DNA from: Pseudomonadota bacterium
GTDB lineage: Bacteria > CALINM01
NCBI GenBank assembly: GCA_026415985.1
Contig: JAOAGA010000005.1
Span: 1 to 40,899, forward strand
Length of the DNA: 40,899 nucleotides
Reading direction: 5' to 3'
This document shows, one piece after another, positions 13,317 through 22,049 of the stretch. A program made the translations under genes and the position numbers. Under the pieces are notes generated by a model, which searched no databases, was not told where the DNA came from, and saw nothing but the letters and a program-made list of their open reading frames with translations. Each line of letters begins with the position of its first letter. The stretch's first letter is position 1.

Positions 13317-14174
13317 CTAATTTATATAATATACCAAACTCTTTCTAACACCATCTCTCATTATATCAAGTTCTACTTTATCAAGCTCTTTTAGCAGATT
13401 AAATATCTTAATACCATCATTAGGTGATGTTAACTCAATACCATTGGCACGCAAGATTACGTCTCCATTCTTTAACCCAATACTATCATAAAAGCCATTA
13501 GGCTTAACCTCCCTGACTACAAATCCCTGCTGTTTCCCGTCAACAATATTTGGCAATAACCTCGCATCTGTAAGAATCTCTCTTGGCTCTTCAAGAAACC
13601 TTTTTATCAGATCTCTGCTAAAGGTTTGCCCCTGCCCCGGTGCCTGTTGAGTTTGAGAACTCAAGTTAGGTGGATTACCTGACGATGTTTTTTTATCTTC
13701 CAAAACCGCTCCTTCTAAAGGAACCTTAAACCCTCTGCCCCCCTGAGAAATATAGACATAATCTTTTGTCACCATACTAAGTTTTCCTGTATTAAAAACA
13801 TCATCTCCTAACTTAAAAAGGATTTGTTTTCCTTCTTTATTTTCAATAAAGGCATAACCAGGAAAAAGTGTAATAACTCCTTTAAGCTTTAAACCTGTTG
13901 AATCAACCGCTACAGACTGTTCTGCTTTTTTCTCTATAACGGAAAAAGTAGCACCTTTTATAGAAAATATGTTTTTATCTACGACTAAGGCATAATCATT
14001 TATTGTTTTTGAAGTATTTTTTTGGGGCTCCTGCTTTTTTTGACTCTCAGGTAGTGTCTCTTTTAAAGTAGCTAATTTTATGATATTACCAAGATAATAG
14101 GACAAGAATAAAATAACTGTTATAAATCCTATTATGTCTATTACCTTTGTTTTGTTTATCTTTACCATTTCCAT
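13317..14174 (-). CDS. gspC: Type II secretion protein GspC with PDZ domain
   Basis: A 285-residue inner-membrane protein that connects the platform to GspD. It has one N-terminal membrane segment (about residues 12-33), a linker, the homology region (about 60-145: DYALVVDKNIFSI, LKGVITLFPGYAFIENKEGKQILFKLGDDV as its core) that binds the secretin N0 domain, a Gln/Pro-rich linker (about 165-185) and a C-terminal PDZ domain (about 200-282: GFVVREVKPNGFYDSIGLKN, GDVILRANG). The start overlaps the upstream heme-protein gene by 13 bases; an alternative ATG at 14168 is equally possible. No separate promoter is seen, so gspC is probably coupled to the upstream redox genes. Confidence 0.93.
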   Translation of the reverse strand: MEMVKINKTKVIDIIGFITVILFLSYYLGNIIKLATLKETLPESQKKQEPQKNTSKTINDYALVVDKNIFSIKGATFSVIEKKAEQSVAVDSTGLKLKGVITLFPGYAFIENKEGKQILFKLGDDVFNTGKLSMVTKDYVYISQGGRGFKVPLEGAVLEDKKTSSGNPPNLSSQTQQAPGQGQTFSRDLIKRFLEEPREILTDARLLPNIVDGKQQGFVVREVKPNGFYDSIGLKNGDVILRANGIELTSPNDGIKIFNLLKELDKVELDIMRDGVRKSLVYYIN

Positions 14175-15022
14175 AGAGTTATTAAAAAGATTATTATAAA
14201 CACAATAACAAGATTTGTATAGGCAAGAAAGTAAAAAACCCTTATAATCTTATCCTTTTCAACTTTGCTCTGGAAGGTAAAATCTACTTTTTTAAATCTT
14301 TCTAAAACATCTTCTCCATGAGGGGCAAGCTTTAAAACCCTGGTAAGATCTTCTCCGGCAAAATGTCTGCCCATATGAACACCCATCGGCCATAGCTTAC
14401 TGTTAGTTACATCATAAACCTTACCATTATAGGCAATATAGGCTTGCCTACCCTCCTTACCATCGTAATGACCAAGCCCTGCATTTTTTTCTCTGTTTAT
14501 CTTGCTTCTCATTTTTGGCCCCAAAAAGAGCGTTACAAAGATGGCAGATGAGACCATAATCAGGTAGAAGAAAATCTTTAAAGATAAGATTATTCCATAC
14601 CTGTTATCAAAGAAATCATAAAAACTATCTATTTTGAAAAAGGTAAGTATAGTCCCTGTAATAGCCATTACAAAAATAGATGTCCAGCCAAGCAAAAGTT
14701 CTCCTCTCGGCAAGCCACCCGCAGCATAGCTTGGTTTAAGTATTAAATGGACATATAAGATTGTCCCAAACCAGGTTATAGCAAAGAAGAGATGAATAAA
14801 ATAAGTTATAAATCTTATTATTCTTTTGGCAGGAGTTAATCCCTTTAACTCAACAAGAAACTTTTCTCCTGCTCTGGTTAGATCTTTACCTTTAGATATA
14901 TCTTTATGACAGTAACTGCAATCTTTACCAGTTTTTTCAGCTAATAACTCCGTTGCATACAGATTCTTCACAGACAGAGCAAATAGCAATAAGAATAAAA
15001 AAAGAACTCCCTTTCTTTTCAT
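14162..15022 (-). CDS. Membrane protein with c-heme site, CopD-like core and cytochrome b5-like domain
   Basis: A 286-residue fusion. A signal peptide (cut near residue 23, LYA/T) precedes a single c-type heme site CSYCH at 35-39. Membrane segments follow at about 71-94, 109-129 and 143-167, with CopD/DUF-like character (HLFFAITWFGTILYVHLIL). Residues 190-246 match a cytochrome b5-like heme/steroid-binding domain (GRQAYIAYNGKVYDVTNSKLW; GRHFAGEDLTRVL; LAPHGEDVLERF) with candidate ligands H216, H220 and H235, and a fourth segment lies at 262-284. The strongly basic loop at 170-180 puts the b5 domain on the cytoplasmic side, opposite the c-heme. It lies 2 bases after the DUF362 gene and overlaps gspC. 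Likely a transmembrane electron-transfer protein; partners unknown. Confidence 0.75.
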   Translation of the reverse strand: MKRKGVLFLFLLLFALSVKNLYATELLAEKTGKDCSYCHKDISKGKDLTRAGEKFLVELKGLTPAKRIIRFITYFIHLFFAITWFGTILYVHLILKPSYAAGGLPRGELLLGWTSIFVMAITGTILTFFKIDSFYDFFDNRYGIILSLKIFFYLIMVSSAIFVTLFLGPKMRSKINREKNAGLGHYDGKEGRQAYIAYNGKVYDVTNSKLWPMGVHMGRHFAGEDLTRVLKLAPHGEDVLERFKKVDFTFQSKVEKDKIIRVFYFLAYTNLVIVFIIIFLITLWKW

Positions 15023-16835: not shown

Positions 16836-16864
16836 TTGAAATTAAAAAAAATCAACATTATAAT
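16836..16864 (+). promoter_or_regulatory. Near-consensus sigma-70 promoter for the WD40 gene
   Basis: Plus strand: TTGAAA at 16836-16841, 17-base spacer, perfect TATAAT at 16859-16864. Predicted transcript start about 16871, 28 bases before the ATG at 16899. It diverges from the phosphatase promoter at 16784-16812. Confidence 0.65.
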
Positions 16865-16898: not shown

Positions 16899-19800
16899 AT
16901 GTATAAACCTGTCATAAAAATATTTTTGAATCTGTTTAAAGCTCTTGATATTTTTTGGGTTATTTTTATAACTCAAGGATGGTGCTTTTCCGATTTTTCT
17001 ATCTCTCCTACCCTAAATCATAAAGATTGGATACTTTCTGTAGCAATCTCACCAAATGGCAGATTTGTTGCATCAGCTGGAAGAGACAATGTGATTAAAA
17101 TTTGGGATATCTATACCAAAGACGAGATTGAGACATTATATGGTCATTCCGACTGGGTCGGTTCAGTAGTGTTCTCTCCTGATGGTAAGTATATTCTGTC
17201 AGGTGGCTGGGACAATATAATCAGACTTTGGGATTTCGAAACAGGTATCGAGGTTAAAAAATTTGATAACATGGAGGGGACAACCTGCGTTTCTTTTTCT
17301 CCCGACGGGAGATATTTTCTTTCAACAGGTTATGGTAGCTTAAAAATATGGAATATAGCAGAAAATCGAATAGAAAAAATACTGGAAGGGCATCAAGGTT
17401 TTGTCCAATCGGCAAGATTTTCAAAAGATGGCAGATTTGTTGTATCTGGTGGATTCGACGGGATGGTTAAGCTTTGGGACATATTTTCAGAAAAAGAGTT
17501 ACATACCTTTATAGGTCATATCAATTTTGTTCATTCTGTTGATTTTTCACCTGATGGTAAAAAGATAATCTCTTCGGGATACGATAAAACTGTCAAGGTT
17601 TGGGATCTTCAGAACAAAAGATTTATCACTTCATTACGGGGCCACTCAGGATGGGTGTTATCTGCAATATATTCAGAAGATGGTAAATATATAATTTCCG
17701 GTGATACTGATGGCTATATCTATATATGGGATAGCGAAACCTATAAAGCTATCAGGAAAATATATTCTCATAAAAACTGGATTAGCTCTTTAACAATTTC
17801 ATCTGACAACCTTTACTTCCTGTCAGGTAGTTGTGATAGGACCGTAAAAATATGGGACATAAAAAATGGTAATAAAATCCTAACTTTAGGGGAAAAGAAT
17901 ATTGCCACTATAGTTACGGTTTCAAACAATGAGAGATTAATGGCTTGCAATGATGAAAACAATTTCATAAATATCTGGGACATCCGCAAGGGGAAAAAAA
18001 TAGCAACTTTAGCGGGACATAACCATCCGATTACTTCTCTGGTTTTTACACCTGATAACAACTATCTTCTTTCAGGAAGTATTGAAAATTTAATAAAAGT
18101 TTGGGACATAAAAACAGGGGATTTGATTAAATTAATTCCCGGTAACTCAACCGGTATAACATCTATGACCTTCTCGTTAGATGGGGAATACTTATTAACA
18201 AGTGGATATGACGGAATAGTTACTCTCTGGGACTGGAAGGATTATAAAATAATTCAACAATTTTATATTTCAGACAACAACTTTATTTTAGCAAGCTTTT
18301 CTAAAGATAACAGATATATTGCTACTGGTGGATCGGAAGGACTAATTAGTGTTTGGGATGTTAAAAAAAACACCTTTGTTTTATCTGAAAAAATACATAA
18401 AAAAGAAATTTTAAGTATTGCTTTTTCTCCCAAAGATAACTTAATAGTTACAGGTGGCAAAGATAATTTATTATATTTATTTGATTTTATAAATAATAAA
18501 AAAAAAATATTTGAAGGACACAGAGATACCGTTATAGGGGTTTCTTTTACGTCCGATGGTAACAATATTGTCTCTATATCTAAAGATAAAACTGTAAAGG
18601 TGTGGGACACTTACTCTGGGAAATTATTAAAAAATATATTAACTAATTTGGATCTGTCTTCTCTCTACTTAACGAAAAATACTTTACTTATCGGGGGCAA
18701 GAAAAATATTATAAAGATTTATAATCTCGAGCCCTTTGCAGAACTTGCTACTATCTACAATCTTAAAAACAAAGAATGGTTATTTATTACTTCCAAAGGT
18801 TTTTATAATACATCCTGTAACGGAGATAGTTTCTTCTTTATTGAAAATAAAGATAAAAAATATTTTTTAAATCAGTTTCATTCTGGTTTTTGTAGCAGTA
18901 AGATTGTAAAAGATATATTAAAGGGTGAAAAATTTTCAGATTATAATTCTTATGAACTATCTTTAAATCCCTTAGATATCACCCCGCCTGAAATAAATAT
19001 AAATTTAGATAATGAAAAACTGGCAATAGATTTTGAATGTAAAAAGAATTTTTTAAAAGCAGTTAAAGTATTTGAAGATGGTCATATAATTCATGAACAC
19101 AAATTAGAGCATGTATCTAAACATTCTGATATTATAGAACAAAAAAACTTATTAGATATTAATGGAAAAGAGAAAATAATTGAAATATTTGCATCTAACG
19201 ATTACTCAGAAACATCAGATGTAAGATTGGTTTACTCAAAGGATAAACAATTAAAAAGTCACCAAAACCTATGGTTAATATCTATGGGAATATCCTATTT
19301 AAATGATAAATCATTGAATAAACTAAGTTTTCCTGTAAGAGACGCATTGGCAATCTCAAAATTATTTAAAAATTCAGGAAAGGAGATTTTTAATAAAGTT
19401 TATTCTTTTACAATAAATGATATTACCAACAAAAACCCCATAAAAATCCAACTAAAAGAAACTATTGAGAAAATAAATGAACAAATTTCTAAGGAAGATT
19501 TGTTTATTTTATATTTATCGGGATATAGTACCACCGATGACTACGGAAATATCTATTTAGTTGTTCCCGATGAGAAGAATCAGAGAAACTTCGAAAAAAA
19601 CCCCAAAGTTATAAATCTTATAGAAACTTTAAAAACACTTAAATTCAATTCTAAAAAAATATTCATATTAGATTTATACGATATTAGTTATGACGGATTA
19701 AATCAACCCGATTATGAAGGTTTGTTTAAATACGCTAAAAATAATAACTTTGCAATTTTTATCTCAACAAAAAACTTTCAAGCTGTCAATGAGGCTCAAA

Positions 19801-20000
19801 AATTAGGACACAGTTTTTTGTCTTACACAATTATCGAAGGTTTGTTAAAGAAAGCAGATAAAAACAATAAAGAAAGTATTTCTTTAAGAGATCTTGAAAT
19901 TTTTTTAAATTATAGAGTTGCTGATATATCAGGATACTATGAAAATATTTGTACTTTTATCCCTAAAAGCTATCGCAAAATCATTATCTCAAAAGATTAG
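16899..20000 (+). CDS. Exported 14-repeat WD40 protein with degenerate caspase-like domain
   Basis: A 1033-residue protein. An N-terminal hydrophobic stretch (about residues 6-30) suggests export or membrane anchoring. Residues about 40-610 hold 14 WD40 repeats, each ending in a WD-type motif (IKIWDI, IRLWDF, VKLWDI, VKVWDL, ... IKIYNL), enough for two seven-bladed propellers. A linker with EWLFITSKGFYNTSCNGDSF matches the segment that follows propellers in bacterial WD40-caspase proteins, then an Ig-like part (PPEININLD). Residues about 787-1033 align with peptidase C14: NLWLISMGISYL, VRDALAISKLF, EDLFILYLSGYS, FILDLYDIS. The catalytic His of SGHG is Tyr876 and the Cys of LD-x-C is Tyr927, so it is predicted to be a pseudoprotease. 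No clear ribosome site; AT-richer than the neighbours. Confidence 0.85.
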   Translation: MYKPVIKIFLNLFKALDIFWVIFITQGWCFSDFSISPTLNHKDWILSVAISPNGRFVASAGRDNVIKIWDIYTKDEIETLYGHSDWVGSVVFSPDGKYILSGGWDNIIRLWDFETGIEVKKFDNMEGTTCVSFSPDGRYFLSTGYGSLKIWNIAENRIEKILEGHQGFVQSARFSKDGRFVVSGGFDGMVKLWDIFSEKELHTFIGHINFVHSVDFSPDGKKIISSGYDKTVKVWDLQNKRFITSLRGHSGWVLSAIYSEDGKYIISGDTDGYIYIWDSETYKAIRKIYSHKNWISSLTISSDNLYFLSGSCDRTVKIWDIKNGNKILTLGEKNIATIVTVSNNERLMACNDENNFINIWDIRKGKKIATLAGHNHPITSLVFTPDNNYLLSGSIENLIKVWDIKTGDLIKLIPGNSTGITSMTFSLDGEYLLTSGYDGIVTLWDWKDYKIIQQFYISDNNFILASFSKDNRYIATGGSEGLISVWDVKKNTFVLSEKIHKKEILSIAFSPKDNLIVTGGKDNLLYLFDFINNKKKIFEGHRDTVIGVSFTSDGNNIVSISKDKTVKVWDTYSGKLLKNILTNLDLSSLYLTKNTLLIGGKKNIIKIYNLEPFAELATIYNLKNKEWLFITSKGFYNTSCNGDSFFFIENKDKKYFLNQFHSGFCSSKIVKDILKGEKFSDYNSYELSLNPLDITPPEININLDNEKLAIDFECKKNFLKAVKVFEDGHIIHEHKLEHVSKHSDIIEQKNLLDINGKEKIIEIFASNDYSETSDVRLVYSKDKQLKSHQNLWLISMGISYLNDKSLNKLSFPVRDALAISKLFKNSGKEIFNKVYSFTINDITNKNPIKIQLKETIEKINEQISKEDLFILYLSGYSTTDDYGNIYLVVPDEKNQRNFEKNPKVINLIETLKTLKFNSKKIFILDLYDISYDGLNQPDYEGLFKYAKNNNFAIFISTKNFQAVNEAQKLGHSFLSYTIIEGLLKKADKNNKESISLRDLEIFLNYRVADISGYYENICTFIPKSYRKIIISKD

Positions 20001-20067: not shown

Positions 20068-20496
20068 ATGTTGTTTAAAAGAGTTATATATCTGTTATTT
20101 TTATTGTCTTTGATGCCAACCTTACTTTTTGCAAAGGATGAGTTCGATGATTTCTTATCCGAGATCAATGTCTCTGCCCAGCAAGATTTAGGAGGATTTA
20201 AATCAAAACTGTCTTTGTCTTTTGGTGTTGAAAAGACAAAAGTAGAATCAGTTATATCTGTCTCAGAAAAGCCTGCCGATGCCTATATGATTTTCAGAGT
20301 AGCAGAAATCTCCCAAAAACCAGTTGAGGAAGTTGTAACGGTATATAAGAAAAATAAAAATCAAGGTTGGGGCAAGATTGCCAAAGAACTTGGCATAAAA
20401 CCCGGTTCAAAGGAGTTCAAGGAACTAAAAAAGGGCAAGCTCAGTGAGTCCGATGACTCAGAAAAGGTTAAAGGTAAAGCCCACAAATGGAAATAA
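20068..20496 (+). CDS. Small exported protein of unknown function
   Basis: A 142-residue protein with a strong AGGAGGAG ribosome site and a clear signal peptide (MLFKRVIYLLFLLSLMPT, cut after LFA). The mature part is mostly helical: ADAYMIFRVAEISQKPVEEV, then VYKKNKNQGWGKIAKELGIKPG, then a lysine/serine-rich tail. The block GWGKIAKELGIKPGSKEFKEL looks like a conserved module that I recall from small exported proteins of Geobacter-like and Deferribacteres-like bacteria, without known function. Predicted periplasmic. It lies 67 bases after the WD40 gene and 26 before the acyl synthetase gene. Confidence 0.75.
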   Translation: MLFKRVIYLLFLLSLMPTLLFAKDEFDDFLSEINVSAQQDLGGFKSKLSLSFGVEKTKVESVISVSEKPADAYMIFRVAEISQKPVEEVVTVYKKNKNQGWGKIAKELGIKPGSKEFKELKKGKLSESDDSEKVKGKAHKWK

Positions 20497-20522: not shown

Positions 20523-22049
20523 ATGTATCTTTTACACCAAAACTTTATTAAGATCGCAAAAAAATACTCCGGCAAAATTGCTATTAAAGACAAAACAATA
20601 GGTAAAGATATTACCTATGGCAGAGCGTTAATAGCTGCGCTTATTTTGACCAATAAATTCAAAAGGTTTAAAGATGGTTTTATCGGTATTATGTTACCGA
20701 CATCCGGAGGATGTGCACTGGCAATTTTGTCAACATTAATGAGCGGGAAAACGCCTGTTATGATTAATTACTCAACTGGCGCAGAAAATAACGTAAGATT
20801 CGCCCAAAAAAAATGTAATTTCAAAACGGTAATTACATCAAAAGCTCTGTTAGAAAAGATAAACTGTCCGGTTATCGAGGGTATGATTTTTTTAGAAGAT
20901 ATAGTCAACAGTATATCTGCAAAGGACAGGGTACTTACCGCCATTCTCTCAAAAATGCCCACTAATCTTTTATTAAATAAGGTACATAAAGGAGATGTTG
21001 AAGATACCGCAGTAATATTATTTACAAGTGGTAGCGAGAAAGAGCCAAAGGCGGTTCAACTTTCTCATAAGAATATATCCTCGAATATACTGAGTTTTAT
21101 AAGGACCTTCCCTTTATCCGATGAAGATGTAATGCTTGCCAACCTGCCATTTTTTCATGTCTTCGGGTTAACAGTTAATCTCTGGACGCCATTTCATTTT
21201 GGCATGACTATTGTAACCTATGCAAACCCTATCGAATACAAAAACATTGTAAATATAATCAAACAGGAAAAACCTACTGTTATGGTAGGTACACCCTCTT
21301 TTTTATCTGGTTATTTAAGGGTTTCCTCTCCCGGTGATTTTGATTCGTTGAGATTTGTTATAAGTGGTGCCGATAAATGTCCCGATCTTTTGAGAGAGGG
21401 TTATCTTAACAAACATAATATAACTATATATGAAGGATACGGTACAACAGAAACTTCTCCGGTTGTCTCTGTTAATACACCAAAATATAATAAGCCCGGT
21501 AGTATCGGCAAGGTAATTCCCGATGTTCAGGTTAAAATAGAAAATTACGAAACCGGGGAAGAGTGTAAACCAAAGGAGATTGGTAAGATACTCGTCAAGG
21601 GAAATCTCGTTATGAAAGGATATTTGGATGATATGGAACAAACTTCTTTGAGAATCAGAGGTGGCTGGTATGATACCGGAGATATGGGTTATTTTGATGA
21701 AGATGGATATTTATGGCACTGCGGAAGACTGATGAGATTTGTCAAAATCGGTGGTGAAATGGTATCACTTGTAAGGGTTGAAAACGTTCTTGAAAAATTT
21801 CTACCAAAGGACACTGAATGCTGTGTGGTAGAGGTTCCCGATGCCCAAAAAGGTGCAAGAATAATAGTTGCTTTGACAAAACCTGTTGATGAAAAGGAAA
21901 TACTTAAAAAGATGTCAGAAGAGTTGCCCAATATTGCCTTGCCCAAAAGTTTTATAATAATAGAAGAACTGCCCAAAATGGGTAGCGGAAAGATAGATTT
22001 CCGCAAAACAACGGAGCTCGTTAAACTTAAACTGGATAAACTAAGTTGA
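20523..22049 (+). CDS. AMP-forming acyl-CoA/acyl-ACP synthetase
   Basis: A 508-residue member of the ANL (adenylate-forming) superfamily. The AMP-binding P-loop is in VILFTSGSEKEPKAVQLSHKN at 164-184; the A5 motif is YEGYGTTETSP, followed by GKVIPDVQVKI, the A7/A8 region GWYDTGDMGYFDEDGYLWHCGR and the C-terminal catalytic lysine in PKMGSGKIDFRK. The sequence resembles the acyl-ACP synthetase half of Aas and long-chain acyl-CoA synthetases more than acetyl-CoA synthetases. It activates a fatty acid with ATP; chain length and acceptor (CoA or ACP) cannot be told. No membrane segment. The convergent FadL-type porin gene next door would suit fatty-acid uptake, but that link is an inference. Confidence 0.9.
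   Translation: MYLLHQNFIKIAKKYSGKIAIKDKTIGKDITYGRALIAALILTNKFKRFKDGFIGIMLPTSGGCALAILSTLMSGKTPVMINYSTGAENNVRFAQKKCNFKTVITSKALLEKINCPVIEGMIFLEDIVNSISAKDRVLTAILSKMPTNLLLNKVHKGDVEDTAVILFTSGSEKEPKAVQLSHKNISSNILSFIRTFPLSDEDVMLANLPFFHVFGLTVNLWTPFHFGMTIVTYANPIEYKNIVNIIKQEKPTVMVGTPSFLSGYLRVSSPGDFDSLRFVISGADKCPDLLREGYLNKHNITIYEGYGTTETSPVVSVNTPKYNKPGSIGKVIPDVQVKIENYETGEECKPKEIGKILVKGNLVMKGYLDDMEQTSLRIRGGWYDTGDMGYFDEDGYLWHCGRLMRFVKIGGEMVSLVRVENVLEKFLPKDTECCVVEVPDAQKGARIIVALTKPVDEKEILKKMSEELPNIALPKSFIIIEELPKMGSGKIDFRKTTELVKLKLDKLS

Follow-up and report, generated by a model that had tools for sequence, protein, structure and literature searches.

A WD40-C14 gene and its surroundings

The window, a stretch of 40,899 nucleotides, contains an open reading frame that starts with ATG, encodes 1033 amino acids and has no internal stop, as expected from a preliminary description of the DNA in which the frame was called intact over 3.1 kb. 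The features assigned to this gene (whose product is referred to below as the window protein) and to its immediate flanks are as follows.

16836..16864, + strand: sigma-70-type promoter-like site TTGAAA-17-TATAAT, an 11/12 match in the 86-bp gap 5' of the open reading frame
16899..20000, + strand: whole open reading frame, comprising 14 WD40 repeats, a linker, an Ig-like region and a C14-like putative pseudoprotease domain, with collinear homologues
16899..16982, + strand: hydrophobic N-terminus (residues 1-28), from hydropathy; putative signal peptide or anchor
16983..17861, + strand: first WD40 propeller (blades 1-7, residues 29-321), from Pfam WD40 and Beta-prop matches and the blade split
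17862..18734, + strand: second WD40 propeller (blades 8-14, residues 322-612), from Pfam matches and the blade split; blades 8 and 14 degenerate
18774..18818, + strand: linker EWLFITSKGFYNTSC (residues 626-640), of the kind usual in WD40-C14 proteins
18996..19235, + strand: Ig-like beta-rich region (about residues 700-779), from AlphaFold strands of low-to-moderate model confidence
19254..19997, + strand: C14/caspase-like domain without the catalytic dyad (about residues 786-1033), from AlphaFold, Foldseek and homology
20068..20496, + strand: 142-amino-acid exported-looking protein, directly downstream, with a strong Shine-Dalgarno sequence (perfect AGGAGG)

The promoter-like site lies 35 bp upstream of the open reading frame. 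It is the best in the region and the only one to score 11/12; the total number of such sites in the region is not above that in shuffled sequences. No Shine-Dalgarno sequence was found 5' of the ATG.

The 142-residue protein matched no Pfam family and had no relative among 97 other genomes; that it is a co-transcribed partner of the window protein is speculation. Beyond it, a stand-alone AMP-ligase gene (20523-22049) most resembles the ligase half at the C-terminus of acyl-ACP--phospholipid acyltransferase (Aas-like) fusions. A conserved neighbourhood was rejected, the 142-residue gene being without relatives in the genomes searched and the AMP-ligase gene having only ~28-38% matches in the sister genomes. 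Also rejected was a role in a defence system: PADLOC matched only the HEAT-ARM model, through the WD40 part, and the C14 part gave no match. Further upstream, at 14162-15022, is a gene for a membrane protein in which a cytochrome b5-like domain comes after a CopD-like region; its neighbours are a DUF362 ferredoxin gene and a type II secretion operon.

Two propellers, a linker and an Ig-like region precede the C-terminal domain

The WD40 part is matched by Pfam WD40 with E=8e-112 and contains 11 separately significant stretches. When split by eye, it yields 14 blades over about residues 29-612, in agreement with the 14 WD-type repeats counted at first. After the second propeller comes the linker block that had been recognized as characteristic of WD40-caspase proteins. 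The segment WLFITSKGFYNTSCNG (from residue 627) occupies the same position as WIVMTPEGYFNASPNG and WIVITPEGYYNASPNG in WD40-C14 homologues; W-L-F-I-T-S-K-G-F-Y-N-T-S in the window protein has the counterpart W-I-V-M-T-P-E-G-Y-F-N-A-S, and both pattern and position are common to five of the six full-length homologues examined. The layout is thus that of the exported WD40-C14 family, with N-terminal propellers, a W-x-x-x-T-x-x-G-[YF]-[YF]-[ND]-x-S linker and a C-terminal C14 domain. At the place equivalent to the Ig-like region, the homologue L057 has a match to Pfam Big_7 (bacterial Ig).

Residues 8-25 form a hydrophobic stretch, with hydropathy reaching 1.8 across residues 10-24, and the N-termini of WD40-C14 homologues are hydrophobic or lipoprotein-like. 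From these two observations we infer that the window protein is probably exported, its N-terminus serving as a signal peptide or anchor.

The C-terminal domain is a C14 homologue below Pfam detection

Pfam Peptidase_C14 (PF00656, cut-off 21.4 bits) gave no match to the C-terminal domain up to E=10, and phmmer found none in the PDB. The kinship with C14 proteins is nevertheless clear from sequence comparison and from the predicted fold. Blastp aligns the window protein collinearly with L057 (genome G083; E=1e-58) across residues 82-1020 and with a G263 paralogue across residues 74-1011 (E=1e-49), and the C-terminal end of the window protein aligns with that of the WD40-C14 homologues; L057 and the related L059 and L061 score 59-73 bits against PF00656. 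The C-terminal part alone matches proteins carrying C14 motifs at 1e-14 to 1e-25, and a 34-homologue profile that includes the window protein matches metacaspases and MALT1 in the PDB.

An AlphaFold2 model of the C14 core has pLDDT values of 81-96 for most 10-residue blocks, with lower values in the loops. Foldseek ranks MALT1, Arabidopsis metacaspase 9 and caspase-8 highest against it (E 1e-9 to 1e-7, probability 1.00). The alignment behind the model consisted of C14 proteins, so that fold and homology are not separate lines of evidence; the model does show that this sequence is compatible with the fold. The assignment of a C14-like domain made in the preliminary description therefore holds, on homology to PF00656-positive proteins and on the fold comparison. 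Conserved non-catalytic residues are retained (G797, L809, D815, A816, D867, D925, E965, A986 and D987), and of the C14 columns that are highly conserved about half are altered.

Both catalytic residues are replaced and an acidic pocket appears to be kept

The motifs SGYS (residues 874-877) and LDLYDIS (residues 924-930) were found in the translation with the numbering given earlier, Tyr876 and Tyr927. The residues relevant to the active site are listed here.

19341..19343, + strand: Asp815, in an invariant column, taken from sequence as the first S1-pocket Asp (TbMCA2 Asp95)
19524..19526, + strand: Tyr876, at the catalytic-His position in every alignment, with HMMER posterior at maximum
19671..19673, + strand: Asp925, two residues before the Cys column, HMMER posterior at maximum, taken as the second S1-pocket Asp (TbMCA2 Asp211)
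19677..19679, + strand: Tyr927, the more likely occupant of the catalytic-Cys position, from strand register and alignment to the closest clade
19686..19688, + strand: Ser930, the alternative occupant, from MAFFT alignments (DISYDG vs DTCHSG)

It had been proposed that both members of the His/Cys dyad are Tyr. For the His position this stands, as every alignment places Tyr876 there; the Cys position is less certain, with some alignments favoring Ser930. The HMMER posterior for Tyr927 is ~0.4 with a general profile and ~0.6 with a profile of the closest clade, and two MAFFT alignments put Ser930 in the Cys column, D-I-S-Y-D-G lying against D-T-C-H-S-G. With Tyr927 as the Cys equivalent, the LD of LDLY falls on the LD of LD-x-C and the strand scores +10.1 bits, against -2.8 with Ser930; the loop after the strand scores -10.1 in the Tyr927 register and -1.9 in that of Ser930. 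In MAFFT no gap is needed here for the closest clade, in which S-G after the Cys is likewise missing, and this alignment points to Tyr927. In a model of the active homologue L009 made by the same method the strand runs from Cys-8 to Cys-2; the modelled strand of the window protein (919-928) is three residues longer, its start fitting Tyr927 and its end Ser930. A Tyr/Ser dyad is the commonest type among the pseudoenzymes. The Ser930 assignment, backed by MAFFT and the loop score, is disfavoured by the strand score and the closest clade; Tyr927 is the more likely occupant, and neither candidate is a Cys.

We also looked for an intact dyad elsewhere. The only other His and Cys residues of the domain are H788, H971 and C1018, none of them at a dyad position, and H971 aligns with the common non-catalytic G-H in the GH(G/S)xFTY motif of homologues. 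In a 34-row alignment all 33 homologues have His and Cys, while the window protein has neither. Because neither Tyr927 nor Ser930 is a Cys and no other His/Cys dyad is present, the C14 domain should be a pseudoprotease, as first suggested: a caspase-like fold in which both catalytic residues are replaced and none substitutes for them. Both acidic S1-pocket residues, Asp815 and Asp925, appear to be retained in invariant or near-invariant columns, if the correspondence to TbMCA2 drawn from the alignment holds; their role in the pocket is taken from PMC6426788.

Could the domain still hydrolyse substrates in some unusual way, Ser930 and/or Tyr876 standing in for Cys and His? The motif around Ser930, D-I-S-Y-D-G, resembles D-x-C-H-S-G, and Ser is the most common replacement of the Cys in prokaryotic homologues (PMC3501461). 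However, a general base is absent, as no His lies close by; the closest relatives align Tyr927 rather than Ser930 with the Cys, and the cited literature reports no activity for any pseudo-orthocaspase. We regard such chemistry as extremely improbable.

Dyad loss is recurrent among the nearest relatives

The phylum of the window is sampled by three genomes. In the window's own genome, which is 84% complete, the only C14 domain found is that of the window protein; an intact C14 copy (L002/L061) in one sister genome falls in a different clade. The nearest relatives form a WD40-C14 clade from the phylum of G263 (G517, G636, G537, G614, G689, G454 and G701), and the window protein groups with this clade at 98/99 support. 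The dyad has been lost in three of the nine sampled members of this closest clade (Gln/Cys in L096 and L095b, Gln/Ser in L095a; by genome, Gln/Cys in G537 and neighbouring Gln/Ser and Gln/Cys genes in G636), and the Cys loop of the clade is eroded to CHSE, CYWE, CAWE or CRSN. Dyad loss is thus recurrent near the window protein in the tree, and the Tyr/Tyr(Ser) pair was seen once.

The identity of the window protein to its best homologue is ~24%, and its dyad state is known from one genome. Among the matches listed, no Tyr/Tyr orthologue was present in genome contigs (one weak match), plasmids or phages (WD40 only), nor in the two other genomes of the phylum, 386 spread genomes or the phyla of G083 and G263. 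To the question of whether Tyr/Tyr is conserved in the closest homologues, the answer is that none of those sampled shares it: the 33 aligned homologues have His/Cys, and in the nearest clade the His was lost to Gln, once together with Cys to Ser.

Two observations concern the relatives themselves. In G636 (L095:4406-9367) the adjoining WD40-C14 genes, one Gln/Ser and one Gln/Cys, both lack the catalytic His, so that the dyad was lost there independently. In the sister genome G001, the C14 domain (L061:1-988) groups with L021/L092 from other families (f208, f273) on branches of 0.1-0.15, and such very short branches across families suggest that this intact gene was recently transferred horizontally.

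A DUF4384 gene accompanies intact WD40-C14 genes

A gene for a DUF4384 secreted protein lies directly beside intact WD40-C14 genes in G001, G083, G263 and G172 (L061:1011-1850, L057:151-1008, L059:427-1290 and L058:4676-5533; 48-60% identical to the G001 copy), and three of these four genomes lie outside the family of the window. The two genes perhaps form a conserved unit in which the DUF4384 protein is a substrate or partner of the protease. No DUF4384 gene is present in the window; the only one of the genome (G000) is on contig C95 (L066:5987-6442), where it is cut by the contig end. Its homologue in G001 follows the intact C14 gene, and the contig of the window's genome ends at the equivalent place. 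Because the gene is interrupted where G001 has an active C14 copy, an active WD40-C14 gene may lie in the assembly gap.

This bears on the possibility that the cell also has an active WD40-C14 paralogue and that the window protein controls it, much as FLIP(L) controls caspase-8. Adjoining WD40-C14 paralogues do occur in G263, G517 and G636, and an active paralogue could hide in the gap next to the truncated DUF4384 gene of this 84% complete genome. Yet a single C14 domain is all that this genome yields, and in G636 the two neighbouring copies are both without the catalytic His. We consider regulation of a paralogue very unlikely.

Constraint and relaxation in the C14 domain

The regularity of the repeats and the intact frame had been taken to argue for selected function. 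In support, the C14 region runs through 253 codons without a stop at 26% GC; under a Markov model 8% of codons should be stops, and the chance of such an open frame is ~3e-10, whereas the other two frames over the same codons contain 20 and 31 stops. The retained fold residues, the two S1-pocket acids and the promoter-like site upstream also count for constraint. These open codons argue against an old pseudogene. Against the earlier argument, the C14 branch, at 3.2-3.5 changes per site, is the longest in both trees (medians 1.18 and 0.22), with the qualification that a composition bias flagged in the tree could by itself lengthen the window branch. Codon bias is also lowest in the C14 part (-0.018), compared with 0.037 in the WD40 part and 0.051-0.127 in neighbouring genes, and the missing Shine-Dalgarno sequence also counts for relaxation. 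Fast or relaxed evolution of the C14 domain is likely, since its branch is the longest and its codon bias the weakest in the window.

These data are pertinent to a different reading, namely that the C14 domain is under little or no constraint and decaying, which would leave the WD40 propellers as the one part in use. A branch longer than that of any other sampled C14 domain, a codon bias below that of every neighbouring gene and of the WD40 part, the GC content of 26%, and the contrast between WD40 blades near consensus and a C14 part below Pfam detection would all agree with decay. On the other hand, there are no stops or frameshifts in 253 codons despite the stop expectation of 8% per codon, the fold-defining residues are retained, the AlphaFold core is confidently caspase-like, and composition bias alone could have stretched the branch. 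Decay is possible, but we judge it fairly unlikely. The signs of constraint and of relaxation both fit a fast-evolving pseudoprotease, in which decay may recently have begun.

Discussion

Bacterial orthocaspases had been said in the preliminary description to need the His/Cys dyad, a statement that omits the published pseudo-orthocaspases, Tyr-Tyr ones included (PMC7889975, PMC6426788). Klemencic et al. (2019) counted 858 pseudo-orthocaspases among 9,994 bacterial orthocaspases; Alphaproteobacteria and Cyanobacteria account for 90% of these, and the acidic pocket is retained in them (PMC6426788); Tyr-Tyr is among the replaced dyads that have been published (PMC7889975, PMC7475262). In Synechocystis, deletion of the only pseudo-orthocaspase (SyOC) raises H2O2 tolerance (PMC7889975), and therefore at least one protein of this class has a function. 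Among the accessory domains of prokaryotic metacaspases WD40 is the most frequent (PMC3501461), and in Cyanobacteria it is found in 82 true orthocaspases vs 1 pseudo-orthocaspase (PMC8283722).

As an orthocaspase p20 homologue with His and/or Cys replaced, the window protein is a very divergent pseudo-orthocaspase, and thus belongs to a class already described and not to a new type of system. It shares with the known members (PMC6426788), SyOC among them (PMC7889975), a p20-like domain, replacement of both His and Cys and, as far as the alignment indicates, the acidic S1 residues; the change of His to Tyr is the usual one in that class. It differs in having two propellers before the C14 domain, since published pseudo-orthocaspases mostly lack WD40, and in coming from a phylum sampled by three genomes, unlike the 90% that are alphaproteobacterial or cyanobacterial.

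In domain order, linker and length the window protein resembles the exported WD40-Ig-C14 proteins L057 (G083), L059 (G263) and L061 (G001), the last being cut by a contig end so that its N-terminal part is not visible. Those proteins, however, score above the PF00656 cut-off and contain GHG (or SHG) and D-x-C; in four of the genomes with such proteins, unlike in the window, the C14 gene has a DUF4384 neighbor. With the G517/G636/G537/G614/G689/G454/G701 subclade it shares an eroded Cys loop and the loss of dyad residues (three of nine there), whereas the losses in the subclade are of His to Gln, once together with Cys to Ser, its branches are far shorter and a shorter loop leads into the strand. 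FLIP(L) and Trypanosoma brucei TbMC4 are likewise dead caspase-fold domains that act through binding. The likeness is an analogy only, as both are eukaryotic, have other accessory domains and show no specific sequence relation to the window protein.

With the dyad gone and the pocket apparently kept, binding without cutting is the simplest reading. The reading that we favor, as moderately probable, is that of an exported protein with two propellers and an Ig-like region whose dead C14 domain works as a binding module, be it scaffold, decoy or regulator; the sensor or scaffold role proposed initially is plausible. The two seven-bladed propellers and the Ig-like region would display the C14 domain outside the cytoplasm, where the propellers would grip a partner or ligand. 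The C14 domain, with His replaced by Tyr876 and Cys by Tyr927 (or Ser930), would be incapable of cleaving a peptide bond. Having kept the fold and presumably the two acidic S1-pocket residues, it could bind a basic peptide or a protease-like partner without cutting it. Of this picture, the architecture, the homology, the predicted fold and the dyad loss are computational results, while export, inactivity, the kept pocket and binding are deduced from them. Counted against a binding module are the best identity of ~24%, the long branch, the weak codon bias, the missing Shine-Dalgarno sequence, the changed C14 columns and the lack of a DUF4384 neighbor. A bolder version, which we think unlikely, is that the exported WD40-C14 lineage has repeatedly turned a protease into a binding protein, the window protein being the extreme case, with a tyrosine-lined cleft and an acidic S1 pocket forming an extracytoplasmic receptor for basic peptides.

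Pseudo-orthocaspases have so far been tied chiefly to phototrophs, and the present case is one that carries WD40 propellers, is probably exported and comes from a little-sampled phylum. It holds no surprise of principle and is a useful lead for the annotation of bacterial 'caspases'. Together with the neighbouring clade, in which the dyad was lost repeatedly, the window protein points to binding, and not cutting, as a frequent reason why such proteins retain their C14 domain.
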